60,419 nt of DNA from Planctomycetaceae bacterium (lineage in GTDB: Bacteria; Planctomycetota; Planctomycetia; Planctomycetales; Planctomycetaceae): assembly GCA_947476295.1 (NCBI GenBank), contig CANJQC010000015.1, positions 1 to 60,419 of the forward strand, written 5' to 3'. The position numbers were made by a program, and so were the translations under genes. Within the stretch, counting starts at the first letter, position 1. Each line of letters begins with the position of its first letter. The notes under the pieces were generated by a model. That model ran no database searches and was not told the origin of the DNA. It saw only the letters and a program-made list of their open reading frames with translations. Positions 37,640 to 43,163 of this stretch are shown one piece after another.

Positions 37640-37646
37640 TTTGTAG

Positions 37647-37895
37647 GCGAGCGGCAGGGCGTCAGCCCTCCGTGTACTTTGTCGTGAATTCACCCAGCAC
37701 GGGCTTCGCCCGCAACCCAAAGTGGAAAACGCATGGAACACTAATCGACGCTGATCTGCGCTAATCCACAGCAATCACAGCATAAGTGAAGATCAGCGTC
37801 GATTAGTGTTCCCCGTTTATGCGTGCTGGGATTTGTGCGCTGTGCGAAGATTTTGAACGTTAGTAGTACGGAGGGCTGACGCCCAGCCGCTCGCC
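37647..37895. repeat. Nested three-level palindrome, 249 bp
   Basis: The outer arms are 28 bases, 37647-37674 and 37868-37895, with one mismatch (core GGGCGTCAGCCCTCCGT). Inside them CCCAGCACG (37693-37701) pairs with CGTGCTGGG (37822-37830). Innermost, 37735-37756 and 37791-37812 are perfect 22-base inverted copies beginning GGAACACTAATCGACG. The innermost repeat belongs to the same family as those around the GxxExxY gene. The element fills the space between the surface-protein terminator and the stop of the ThiF-like gene, and contains no gene. Confidence 0.85.
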
Positions 37896-37898
37896 GAA

Positions 37899-38654
37899 TC
37901 AAGATACCCCTCCACATTCCTCACACTGATCGTCACGGACAGTTGGGAGTTTGCGGAATTCCATCGTCCGAAGATTGATCAGTAACAGACTGTTCGTCAA
38001 CGGTTCGCCAATACCTGTGATGAGTTTGATGACTTCCAGCGCGGCCAGCGCTCCGATCATTCCGGCGACCGCTCCGAAGACAGGAAACTCGCGTTTCCAG
38101 TGCGGCGGATCGACCGGGTACAGGCATCGCAGACACGGCGTCGAACCGGGTATGATCGTGGTGAGTTGAGCGTCCAAATCAAACATGGCACACTCGATCA
38201 GTGCCCTGCCCTGCTCGACCGCCGCCCGGTTCATCGCGAATCGCTCCGAAAAGAGTGGAGCTGCATCGACAATGATGTCTGCCTGTTTCACAATCGTCGT
38301 CGCGTTATCGTCGGAGACGTTCTGATTGATCGCAACGATTTCCACATGCGGATTCAGCTCGTTCAGACGCCGCTGAGCCGATTCAACGCGCGGTTTGCCG
38401 AGCCAGTCTGTGGTCATCAGCAGTTGGCGATTGAGATCACTGGGCTTGACGTTGCCTGCATGCGCCAGCACAAGTTTTCCAATTCCGGCAGCAGCCAAGT
38501 AATACGCCACAGTGCCTCCGACCCCACCGATCCGTGACACGAGCACACTCGCCGCTTTTAGCTTCCGCTGTCCTTCTTCGCCGACATTCGGCGTCCACAT
38601 CTGCCACTCATAGCGGGCTCGTTCTGCATCGGTCAGGGATGGAAGTTCAGGCAT
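37899..38654 (-). CDS. ThiF/MoeB/HesA-type adenylyltransferase
   Basis: 251 residues. It is an E1-like enzyme that adenylates the C-terminus of a small sulfur-carrier protein (ThiS or MoaD type). Visible features are RYEWQMWTPNVGEEGQRKLK, the ATP loop RIGGVGGTVAYYLAAAG (43-47), SDLNRQLL (73-80), the conserved K87 of GKPRVESA, and two zinc-type pairs, CLRC (near 178) and CEEC near the C-terminus. Length suits MoeB/ThiF without a rhodanese domain. No sulfur-carrier gene is nearby, so the pathway (thiamine, molybdopterin or other) cannot be chosen. No Shine-Dalgarno sequence is visible before ATG 38654. The repeat unit begins only about 22 bp upstream and may have separated this gene from ribF. 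Confidence 0.88.
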   Translation of the reverse strand: MPELPSLTDAERARYEWQMWTPNVGEEGQRKLKAASVLVSRIGGVGGTVAYYLAAAGIGKLVLAHAGNVKPSDLNRQLLMTTDWLGKPRVESAQRRLNELNPHVEIVAINQNVSDDNATTIVKQADIIVDAAPLFSERFAMNRAAVEQGRALIECAMFDLDAQLTTIIPGSTPCLRCLYPVDPPHWKREFPVFGAVAGMIGALAALEVIKLITGIGEPLTNSLLLINLRTMEFRKLPTVRDDQCEECGGVS

Positions 38655-38676: not shown

Positions 38677-38844
38677 TTTGGAACACTAATCTTCGCTAAT
38701 CGACGCTAATCATCGCAGGGAGACAGGAACAGGGGATTTGGAACACTGATCTTCGCTAATTGACGCTAATCATTGCTAGAAGAGCAGGAACCATTTCTTC
38801 CTGCTGCTATTAGCGCAAATCAGTGAAAATTAGTGTTCCAAAAA
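38677..38844. repeat. CTAATC repeats R1, R2 (direct) and R3 (inverted)
   Basis: R1 starts TTTGGAACACTAATCTTCGC at 38677 and R2 starts TTTGGAACACTGATCTTCGC at 38737, both reading rightward. R3 (38805-38844) is the reverse and ends TTAGTGTTCCAAAA. R2 and R3 can fold into a long imperfect hairpin. Motifs of the CTAATC type recur at ten-base steps within each copy. R3 ends 19 bp from the stop codon of the GxxExxY gene. Confidence 0.85.
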
Positions 38845-38862
38845 TGATTTGCACGCAGTTCG

Positions 38863-39243
38863 CTACTTTAGATCACTGATGATCAAACGTTTCCATTCCA
38901 GTTCTCCTTTGTGTCCAAAGTTGATCAGGTATCCAACCGGCTGTCGGGCGATGCGCATGTAATTGAAAAGCTGAGCTTCATGATCACTGCAGAGTTCGGC
39001 CACTGCCTTGAGTTCAACAACAATCTGCCCGAAGACCCTGAGATCGGGCCGGTACTTTGCTGTCAATTCATGCCCTTTGAAGAACACGGATAGCTCCTGC
39101 TTGCTGCCCCACGGAATTTCACGCAGACCGAGTTCAATTTCAAGACTCTGCTGGTAGATCTCCTCCGCGATCCCGTACCCAAGCTCGTTGTAAACCTCGA
39201 ACGCTGCACCCATGAGTTGGTATCCTTCGTCCTTAAGCGTCAT
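38863..39243 (-). CDS. GxxExxY-family PD-(D/E)XK nuclease-like protein
   Basis: 126 residues from ATG 39243, with GGAG seven bases upstream. The naming motif is intact (G24-x-x-E27-x-x-Y30 in LGYGIAEEIY), and the nuclease-like core shows D67 (KYRPDLRV) and E77-L-K79 (IVVELKAV), followed by EAQLFNYMRIAR and GYLINFG. Length is that of the family. Family members belong to the PD-(D/E)XK superfamily, but I know of no established function. The gene is flanked on both sides, within 35 bp, by inverted pairs of CTAATC repeats. It lies between ribF and the ThiF-like gene on the same strand, so it may also be read from the ribF promoter. Confidence 0.9.
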   Translation of the reverse strand: MTLKDEGYQLMGAAFEVYNELGYGIAEEIYQQSLEIELGLREIPWGSKQELSVFFKGHELTAKYRPDLRVFGQIVVELKAVAELCSDHEAQLFNYMRIARQPVGYLINFGHKGELEWKRLIISDLK

Positions 39244-39275
39244 TGATTTTCTCCGAAAAGGTCAGGAACACGGAG

Positions 39276-39384
39276 TTTGGAACACTAATCTTCACTGATT
39301 AACGCTAATCAGGGCACTGCAATGTGCACATGTTTCATTGCTCCTTGTTATTAGTGCAAATTAGTGAAGATTAGTGTTCCAAAA
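39276..39384. repeat. CTAATC repeats R4 and R5 (inverted pair)
   Basis: R4 (39276-39310) reads TTTGGAACACTAATCTTCAC rightward. R5 (39349-39384) is its inverted partner, ending GATTAGTGTTCCAAAA. Together they form a hairpin-capable unit of about 109 bp between the GxxExxY start and the ribF stop. Flanking bases are also shared with the other pair (GGAG before R1 and R4, TGATT after R3 and R5), so the family unit extends a little beyond the core. Confidence 0.85.
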
Positions 39385-39393
39385 GTGATTCAG

Positions 39394-40317
39394 TTAACCT
39401 CTGGGGCGCTGCATTAACCTCGTCGTTTCAACATCTTCACGGATCTGTTGCACGAGGCGTTCGATCGAATCAAATGACTGCAACGGGCGAATTTCAGCCA
39501 GCAGATCGACCTGAAATATCTTGTCGTAAAGATCGCCACTAAATCCATCAATGTGACATTCGACTTTTTCACGATGCTCGCCGAATGTCGGATTCGGGCC
39601 GATGCTGACCGCCACCGGATAACACCTGCCATCACGCGTCGTACGACCGGCATAGACTCCGTGTGCCGGCAACAGTGTGGCAACTTCAGCGAGATTCGCG
39701 GTGGGAAAACCGAGCCCGGCACCGCGGCCTGCTCCGCGACGCACAATGCCCGTCATACGGTATGGATGCCCCAGCAACTGCGCCGCCTTATGCAGAGATC
39801 GACTGCAGATGAGTTCGCGGATATGGCTGGATGAAATAAGTTGTCCGTTGGTTTCGACCGGACTCACAATGCGACACGGCACGGACGCTCGTTCACAGAA
39901 TCCCTGTAACATCGCGGTGTCGCCCTTTCGCTCCCGACCGAACCGAAAATTTGGCCCTTCCACCACACCTTTCGCCTGAAATGAGTCCAGAACAACGGCA
40001 TGAAAGAACTGCTCCGCCGTCATCTCCAAAAGCGACTTTGTCACAGGCAATACAATCACCGAATCAGCTCCGGCCGCGCGCAGCAGTTCAATCCGGTCTT
40101 GAATGGTCGTCAGTATCGGTGGTGTGAACTCAGGACGAAGCACGGCGATGGGATGTGGATCGAATGTAACGGCCACAGCCTGAGTACCCTGCTCTGCCGC
40201 CAGTTCCCGCAATGCAGCGAGCATCACGGCATGACCAAGGTGAACTCCGTCAAAATTCCCGATTGCCACGCAGCCGTGCAATTGCCCGGCGGTCACGGGT
40301 ATAGTCAATCTTGTCAT
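39394..40317 (-). CDS. ribF: Bifunctional riboflavin kinase/FAD synthetase
   Basis: 307 residues from ATG 40317, placed so that the protein begins MTRLTIPVTA shortly before the nucleotidyltransferase motif. The frame is open to 40461, but the extra part is not conserved-looking and spans a hairpin. Residues 15-180 are the FAD synthetase module with GNFDGVHLGHA (20-30) and VLPVTKSLLEMTAEQFF, VVEGPNFRFGRERKGD and SSSHIRELI. The C-terminal riboflavin kinase has RGAGRGAGLGFPTANL and HGVYAGRT. It makes FMN and FAD in the cytoplasm. The ribosome site before ATG 40317 is weak. It may have been in an operon with the ThiF-like gene before the repeat unit intervened. Confidence 0.93.
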   Translation of the reverse strand: MTRLTIPVTAGQLHGCVAIGNFDGVHLGHAVMLAALRELAAEQGTQAVAVTFDPHPIAVLRPEFTPPILTTIQDRIELLRAAGADSVIVLPVTKSLLEMTAEQFFHAVVLDSFQAKGVVEGPNFRFGRERKGDTAMLQGFCERASVPCRIVSPVETNGQLISSSHIRELICSRSLHKAAQLLGHPYRMTGIVRRGAGRGAGLGFPTANLAEVATLLPAHGVYAGRTTRDGRCYPVAVSIGPNPTFGEHREKVECHIDGFSGDLYDKIFQVDLLAEIRPLQSFDSIERLVQQIREDVETTRLMQRPRG

Positions 40318-40356
40318 GGATTGGGAAGCGTCTGAATGCGTTCGACATGGACTAAA

Positions 40357-42614: not shown

Positions 42615-43163
42615 ATGAAAGTGGATCGTTTGGTTTGTTTGGGTGTTATGGCTGGACTGATTGCTTTTGGCGATCTGTCTGAGGCTGGTCCTTTCCGTCA
42701 CTCCAGCGATTTAGGATCATATGGAAACTCTGGCGGATCGACTGGATCTTATGGGTCAGCAGGCGACTATGGTTCAACTGGATCTCACGGATCAGCAGGC
42801 GACTATGGTTCAACTGGATCGCATGGCTCTTATGGATCAGCAGGCGACTATGGTTCAACTGGATCTCACGGATCGCATGGCTCACGAAGAGTACGTCACT
42901 CCTCTGCGTCGTACGGTTCCAGTGGATCTGACGGATCAGTAGGCGACTATGGTTCAACTGGATCGCATGGATCGCATGGCTCACGAAGAGCACGTCACTC
43001 CTCTGCGTCGTACGGTTCCAGTGGATCTCACGGAGCCGATGCTTCAAGCGGTGGATCTTCAGGTGGTCGCGCTGCTCGCCGAGCATCGCGTGGTTCTCAT
43101 GGATCCACGGGTTCAACTGGCTCATATGGATCTCACTCATCAGGTGGATCGAACGTATGGTAG
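42615..43163 (+). CDS. Secreted Gly-Ser tandem-repeat protein
   Basis: 182 residues from ATG 42615 with GGAGG seven bases upstream. A signal peptide (VCLGVMAGLIAFGDLSEA) precedes a low-complexity mature chain made of GSTGSHGSAGDY-like units. Two longer copies carry a basic insert (HGSHGSRRVRHSSASYGSSG and HGSHGSRRARHSSASYGSSG). The tail is again Gly-Ser with a basic patch (GGRAARRASRGS) and ends SNVW. The pattern GS-aromatic/His is like intrinsically disordered surface or matrix proteins. No enzyme domain is present. The function is unknown. The clean leader and ribosome site argue that it is real in spite of the repeats. Confidence 0.75.
   Translation: MKVDRLVCLGVMAGLIAFGDLSEAGPFRHSSDLGSYGNSGGSTGSYGSAGDYGSTGSHGSAGDYGSTGSHGSYGSAGDYGSTGSHGSHGSRRVRHSSASYGSSGSDGSVGDYGSTGSHGSHGSRRARHSSASYGSSGSHGADASSGGSSGGRAARRASRGSHGSTGSTGSYGSHSSGGSNVW
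42721..43050 (+). repeat. Tandem DNA repeats inside the Gly-Ser gene
   Basis: Blocks reading GGCGACTATGGTTCAACTGG recur at least four times, joined by GATCTCACGGATCAGCAG-like spacers. A longer block containing CACGTCACTCCTCTGCGTCG-like sequence occurs twice. Near-identity at DNA level, including silent positions, points to recent duplication and to likely length variation between strains. Confidence 0.85.

Follow-up and report, generated by a model that had tools for sequence, protein, structure and literature searches.

Inverted box arrays around a lone nuclease gene

A small nuclease gene in a planctomycete contig lies between inverted copies of a short repeat, which raises the question of whether gene and repeats form a mobile unit and, if so, which protein moves it. 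The window analysed here is the whole 60,419-nt stretch of that contig (CANJQC010000015.1, Planctomycetaceae bacterium). Its GxxExxY nuclease gene (38863–39243, minus strand) encodes a protein of 126 aa, to which profile searches, AlphaFold2 and residue counts assign a PD-(D/E)XK fold. The host context consists of a ThiF/MoeB-like gene on the left (37899–38654, minus strand) and ribF on the right (39394–40335, minus strand, the start being taken as the ATG at 40335), so that all three genes occupy the same strand.

Five repeat arms surround the gene, each comprising GGAA and three CRCTRAT boxes with a 10-bp period. Downstream of the gene, R2 (38737–38770, plus strand) and R3 (38809–38842, minus strand) are the left and right arms of a complete inverted pair; upstream, R4 (39276–39309, plus strand) and R5 (39350–39383, minus strand) form another; R1 (38677–38710, plus strand) is an additional left arm. 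As the initial annotation had described, inverted repeats enclose the gene, 23 of the first 24 bases of R1 agree with the reverse complement of R5, and 31 bp separate ribF from the ThiF-like gene once 38677–39384 is removed. The gaps between the gene and R3 and R4 are 20 and 32 bp, respectively, by present coordinates, as against the 19 and 33 bp first given. The whole candidate mobile unit spans 38677–39384 (minus strand).

Outside the unit, repeat searches and pair comparison located a gene-less inverted array pair at 37735–37812 (no strand assigned); the 12 kb compared from the nearest relative (G001) contains no counterpart. A REP-like palindrome of ~28 bp, at 37646–37672 and 37869–37896, brackets this pair; dozens among the 100 pieces listed match the palindrome, and there is one match in the G001 stretch. 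Elsewhere in the window, 42615–43163 is a repetitive open frame rich in glycine and serine.

CTAAT arrays in the home genome

In the 5.99-Mb home genome (252 contigs), GGAACACTRATC occurred 32 times and the two-box pattern CRCTRATNNNCRCTRAT matched 124 times, each three-box array giving two matches; the reversed control of each yielded 0. The repeats are therefore not due to chance. A looser search, allowing 2 mismatches in the window alone, gave 13 matches where 9.06 were expected; 11 of 100 shuffles reached 13, so this excess is not significant. This genome also has repeats of this kind without a gene, in keeping with the likeness to RAYT transposases and REP sequences originally proposed.

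One of the seven GxxExxY matches in the home genome is truncated at the N terminus. By reading, periodic arrays were clear on one or both sides of the other six, with differing words, and those of the truncated copy were doubtful. CTAAT-like words stood at only two of the seven genes, again by reading. The idea that the R1 sequence itself marks GxxExxY genes in general was rejected: the words differ between clades.

The repeats had also been taken for hairpins. We compared the two arms of 25 CTAAT inverted pairs, two of which have a right arm in common: 51 of 117 spacer positions matched (43.6%, where composition predicts 39%) and 81 of 128 purine positions agreed. GGAA preceded the left array in 18 of the 25 and TTCC followed the right array in 15, neither being part of the search pattern; conservation of the boxes is partly built in, as pairs were picked for intact boxes. 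A hairpin or single-stranded DNA model of the CTAAT arrays is not supported, the spacer match being near the level of composition. The combination of mismatched spacers with conserved boxes, GGAA and TTCC instead favours boxes that would be read as duplex DNA. This result does not extend to all families, since long near-perfect arms occur in others (L144, score 51; L146, score 44).

A MITE-like repeat of ~205 bp, present in many contigs of the home genome (L018–L037, by reading), has other terminal inverted repeats and a CTAAT array pair inside. Several of these contigs end in it.

The array–gene architecture in other bacteria

The enclosed gene of the window proved to be one case of a general pattern. 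Around GxxExxY (TIGR04256/PF13366) genes, a box made up of C(A/G)C and a clade-specific 4-nt word is repeated every 8–10 bp. Three sets of loci were compared. The first comprised 67 loci from 59 related genomes: 96 matches led to 76 loci that were read, of which 71 were full length and 67 were used with both flanks; most of the remaining matches, largely partial genes, were read later and left out of the counts. A named set consisted of the best 80 of at least 585 loci from many phyla, with 76 used; its taxa include Acidobacteria, Verrucomicrobia, Bacteroidetes, cyanobacteria, Chloroflexota and several proteobacterial classes, together with one contig assigned to Methanosarcinales. A phylum set contained 30 loci among the matches listed from a 294-genome sample of this phylum, with 29 used. 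The family was matched in 145 of these 294 genomes.

For each locus, we scored the best local match of the upstream 150 bp to the downstream 150 bp in reverse complement, with a threshold of ≥13; the controls were the same loci, 600 bp further out. Inverted matches were found at 122 of 172 loci, which are not independent and some of which are orthologous, and at none of 156 controls. The threshold was missed by the other 50. By set, the counts were 45/67, 56/76 and 21/29, with controls of 0/59, 0/70 and 0/27, and a ribF-locus control gave 0/15. When flanks of different loci from the first set were paired at random (1000 draws), the 99th percentile was 14 and the maximum 22, high scores that arise because some words are common to different loci.

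Boxes 7–12 bp apart in the expected orientation occurred at 143 of 172 loci compared with 32 of 156 controls, and boxes in both flanks at 96 compared with 2. The spacing peaked at 8, 9 and 10. Boxes in the reverse orientation, seen at 74 of 172 loci, are explained in part by flanks that hold complete pairs. Seven of the 172 loci, the window included, had inverted pairs on both sides; in 115 others, one arm on each side matched. GxxExxY genes elsewhere are thus associated with repeats as an architecture, with other words than that of the window.

Several loci depart from the simple form. Open frames of ~276–319 aa at L236, L238, L239 and L241 have a divergent GxxExxY domain and are possibly a separate subfamily, and a single open frame at L251 (G023:C85) has two GxxExxY domains. 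The GxxExxY genes of L237, L244, L245 and L250 are frame-split or truncated, as decaying mobile genes would be. In two genomes (L202 and L215), a unit occupies the same place between groEL-like and dnaJ-like genes, named from the look of their proteins.

The repeat word and the nuclease clade

Among the 143 loci with a word, word sharing between pairs of loci was 0.027 where the proteins were less than 30% identical and rose to 0.958 where identity exceeded 75%. The coupling of word and protein gave a Mantel r of 0.39; the highest value in 1000 permutations was 0.14. This box-word test replaced an earlier k-mer version (Mantel r 0.19, null maximum 0.06, 500 permutations) because composition diluted the latter. 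Paralogues within a genome shared the word in 7 of 39 dissimilar pairs (<45% identity) and in 5 of 13 more similar pairs. Between genomes, sharing was found in 33 of 61 pairs at ≥55% identity and in 80 of 760 at <40%. These within- and between-genome figures indicate that the word follows the nuclease more closely than it follows the host. They also point to some host effect, since dissimilar paralogues of one genome share words more often than dissimilar genes of different genomes (7/39 versus 80/760). Linkage alone would give such coupling of word and clade if gene and ends travel together.

The GxxExxY protein

The window protein scored 123 bits against TIGR04256 (cut-off 35) and 131 bits against PF13366 (PDDEXK_3; cut-off 22), and PDDEXK_3 and GxxExxY were its only Pfam or NCBIfam matches at E ≤ 0.001. 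Its AlphaFold2 model had a pLDDT of 95.8. The motif residues are G24xxE27xxY30, D67, E77xK79 and Q91xxxY95. In 172 homologues, G24, D67 and N108 are invariant and position 77 is always E or D; E27 is present in 171, Y30 and K79 in 170 each, Y95 in 166 and Q91 in 165. The predicted fold and the D...(E/D)xK residues place the protein in the PD-(D/E)XK superfamily. Foldseek returned three matches at E ≤ 0.001, all of them chains of Cas4 SSO0001 (4ic1: E 2.7e-4, TMq 0.55), followed by lambda exonuclease (E 1.6e-3), a Spirosoma REase-like protein and, further down, Hjc (E 0.036). A sequence search for a relative of solved structure yielded none at E ≤ 1.

In 17 of 19 gene pairs, dN/dS was 0.023–0.234, with dS saturated in 2 pairs and above 1.5 in several others. 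These values indicate that the GxxExxY gene is under purifying selection.

A role in a defence system was rejected: PADLOC gave weak Cas4 matches for two of three proteins tried and none for the window protein. PHROGs gave no match for the same three proteins.

Unit boundaries and occupied versus empty sites

Five copies of the unit (L191 A, L191 B, L197, L190 and L199) are alike essentially from TTCACCGC to GCGGTGAA, with little similarity outside. The left end of L197 is only partly conserved and L199 is without one box; L191 A, L191 B and L190 have a further dozen A+T-rich bases in common before the left array. No second gene was seen inside these aligned units of ~470 bp.

L191 A and B lie at two sites in a single G275 operon, termed Mrp-like because of how its proteins look; the middle gene of this operon was detected in 5 of 13 genomes from the same genus. 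The following comparisons were made by reading. At site A, G275 has the unit, G286 has arrays with the gene region replaced, and G220, G278 and G337 have neither; the arrays, too, are absent from the empty site in these three relatives. At site B, G275 has the unit, G286 has an array at a contig end, G220 and G278 are empty, and G337 has an unrelated insert. At a Flavobacterium site, for which six genomes were tried (the neighbour gene had no match in one, and another locus was too short for a verdict), three genomes have the unit and G345 has arrays but, over the 354 bp that precede its contig end, no gene. Gene and arrays are accordingly present in or absent from a site together, and gene-less array pairs also occur.

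In the genus of the home genome, ribF is present in 16 of 18 genomes. Within the stretch examined, G001 alone shares the ribF–ThiF order with the home genome, and within the ~1.5 kb examined near ribF, GxxExxY occurs in the home genome only. None of these 16 genomes thus keeps the ribF–GxxExxY–ThiF order without the repeats. The window unit is absent from G001: the alignment ends at 38679 and resumes at 39374, so that homology breaks within 11 bases of the unit limits (38677–39384). The site is not cleanly empty, as 209 unrelated bases (L283, 8727–8935) lie at the ribF–ThiF junction. The absence may reflect gain in the home genome or loss in G001. The 209-bp stretch at this junction perhaps marks a favoured insertion point.

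The boundaries of the five copies, the empty Mrp-like sites and the comparison with G001 argue that arrays and gene move together. These comparisons lend good support to the view that the unit is mobile DNA whose ends are formed by the arrays; of the mobile hairpin repeats first proposed, the mobility is borne out and, for the CTAAT arrays, the hairpins are not supported. Old, vertically inherited units also exist (L001/L048). Around 25 arrays, we recognised no target-site duplication, nor did reading reveal one at either of the Mrp-like sites, where the relatives have diverged; not every IS family makes one. Spread on plasmids or phages was rejected: in tblastn searches at 1e-5, 5 of 72,556 plasmid records matched the L001 protein and 0 of 50,697 phage records matched the window protein.

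Box arrays and the cognate gene

Box arrays are commoner in genomes with the cognate gene. The CTAAT two-box pattern gave 15–124 matches in five genomes with a cognate gene and a median of 0 in 54 others (p 1.5e-4), and five genomes in which we found no cognate gene had 14–69 matches. The RGAT pattern had a median of 23 in 11 cognate-gene genomes versus 3 in 48 others (p 5e-5); RGAT-rich genomes without the cognate gene include G008 (101) and G003 (88). For both patterns combined against any GxxExxY gene, the medians were 20 (33 genomes) and 2.5 (26 genomes without; p 3.5e-4). All three tests ignore phylogeny and assembly gaps. The cognate clade was assigned by best match and reading; the counts take in a contig-end fragment in G020 (CTAAT) and a C-terminal fragment in G001 (RGAT), and leave out a split gene in G011.

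A candidate single-gene mobile element

We consider it likely that the unit is a single-gene mobile element, in which inverted box arrays flank a small Cas4/RecB/lambda-exonuclease-type PD-(D/E)XK nuclease predicted to act on its own boxes. The element would resemble REPtrons, with a nuclease of Cas4/RecB type that probably targets its own arrays. Most simply, this nuclease would itself be the mover, given that it is the sole gene in the aligned units, that the word co-varies with it and that it is conserved as an enzyme. The nuclease would bind its boxes as double-stranded DNA and cut at them, so that units and gene-less pairs begin to move or to be copied. A hydrolytic nuclease by itself does not explain strand joining, and the joining of cut ends would be left to host repair or another partner.

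This last point has a bearing on the next-best explanation, which we regard as unlikely: that the arrays are MITE-like ends moved in trans by an unrelated transposase, with GxxExxY as cargo serving repair or regulation. Strand transfer would then need no contribution from a hydrolytic nuclease, and the occurrence of CTAAT arrays inside the ~205-bp repeat with other terminal repeats (by reading) suggests that arrays can be carried. Against a passenger role, one gene family lies between the arrays at loci from many phyla, box words follow the divergence of the GxxExxY sequence, the gene combines purifying selection with a near-invariant active site, and the five aligned ~470-bp units have no second gene.

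Homing, whereby the gene would cut gene-less array pairs and be copied in by repair through array homology, is a good deal less probable. Gene-less and gene-bearing pairs are alike in layout, and arrays without a gene stand at site A of G286 and in the 354 bp before the contig end of Flavobacterium G345, but deletion explains gene-less forms equally well. The empty Mrp-like sites, moreover, are without arrays as well as gene, indicating that those insertions brought their arrays. Homing could add to the single-gene element, not replace it. Least probable of all is that the arrays are regulatory sites binding host proteins such as IHF or HU, with the gene nearby by chance or for regulation, an interpretation given to opposite-strand paired sites at variable distance in Geobacter metallireducens (PMC2700814, in excerpt) that leaves unit boundaries and the 0/156 controls unexplained and is weakened by the empty Mrp-like sites.

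If the single-gene element is correct, it would assign a role to a nuclease family that is common but uncharacterised and would explain where dispersed periodic repeats come from; it also raises the question of whether a hydrolytic nuclease alone is able to mobilise DNA. The linked change of word and protein would supply natural matched enzyme–site pairs for studying how such nucleases read DNA. The same layout in many bacterial groups points to a little-recognised kind of selfish element. More tentatively, and short of an outright preference, there may be a widespread, hitherto unrecognised class of elements that rely on a single Cas4/RecB-type nuclease and on no known transposase or integrase. 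This nuclease would read clade-specific phased box arrays and spread both units and gene-less pairs, and many as yet unexplained periodic intergenic repeats in environmental bacteria would then be its products. Among the entries listed, our literature search found no paper tying such repeats to GxxExxY, which does not in itself prove absence from print. GxxExxY is named in two papers, neither dealing with repeats in the excerpted text, PF13366 is named in one, and six array sequence strings had no match in the literature searched.

Relation to known systems

A REPtron consists of a RAYT/TnpA-REP transposase gene between a REP and an inverted REP, accompanied by many gene-less copies. The GxxExxY gene likewise lies between inverted repeats with gene-less copies elsewhere in the genome. 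Unlike the Y1 HUH transposase of REPtrons, the enzyme is a PD-(D/E)XK protein according to profile searches, and the repeats are phased box arrays in which the spacers of CTAAT arms are complementary no more than composition predicts. In common with insertion sequences and MITEs, GxxExxY units have inverted ends, empty sites and gene-less derivatives, and their ends are precise. In contrast to insertion sequences, the protein is without a known transposase domain and no target-site duplication was recognised.

The QxxxY motif is linked to the RecB family, and GxxExxY resembles Cas4/RecB nucleases, lambda exonuclease and Hjc in its fold and in this motif. A Cas4 HMM matched two homologues weakly and the window protein not at all. 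Unlike these nucleases, GxxExxY is encoded by a single gene between its own arrays, as in the five aligned units.

Rpn/YhgA-like (Transposase_31) proteins have the PD-(D/E)XK fold. They have been linked to DNA mobility (PMC5350276, in excerpt), a combination that GxxExxY shares, although no Rpn model was among the Pfam or NCBIfam matches of the window protein.

Multicopy sequences have been described in G. bemidjiensis (PMC2996986, in excerpt). In G. metallireducens, class 2 paired repeats with the consensus TCTCCGTS[Y] are predicted to be global regulator sites, a reading that has no nuclease link in the excerpted text (PMC2700814). Compared by description, these repeats resemble the GxxExxY arrays in having three tandem repeats per site and opposite-strand pairs at variable distance (PMC2700814, in excerpt).
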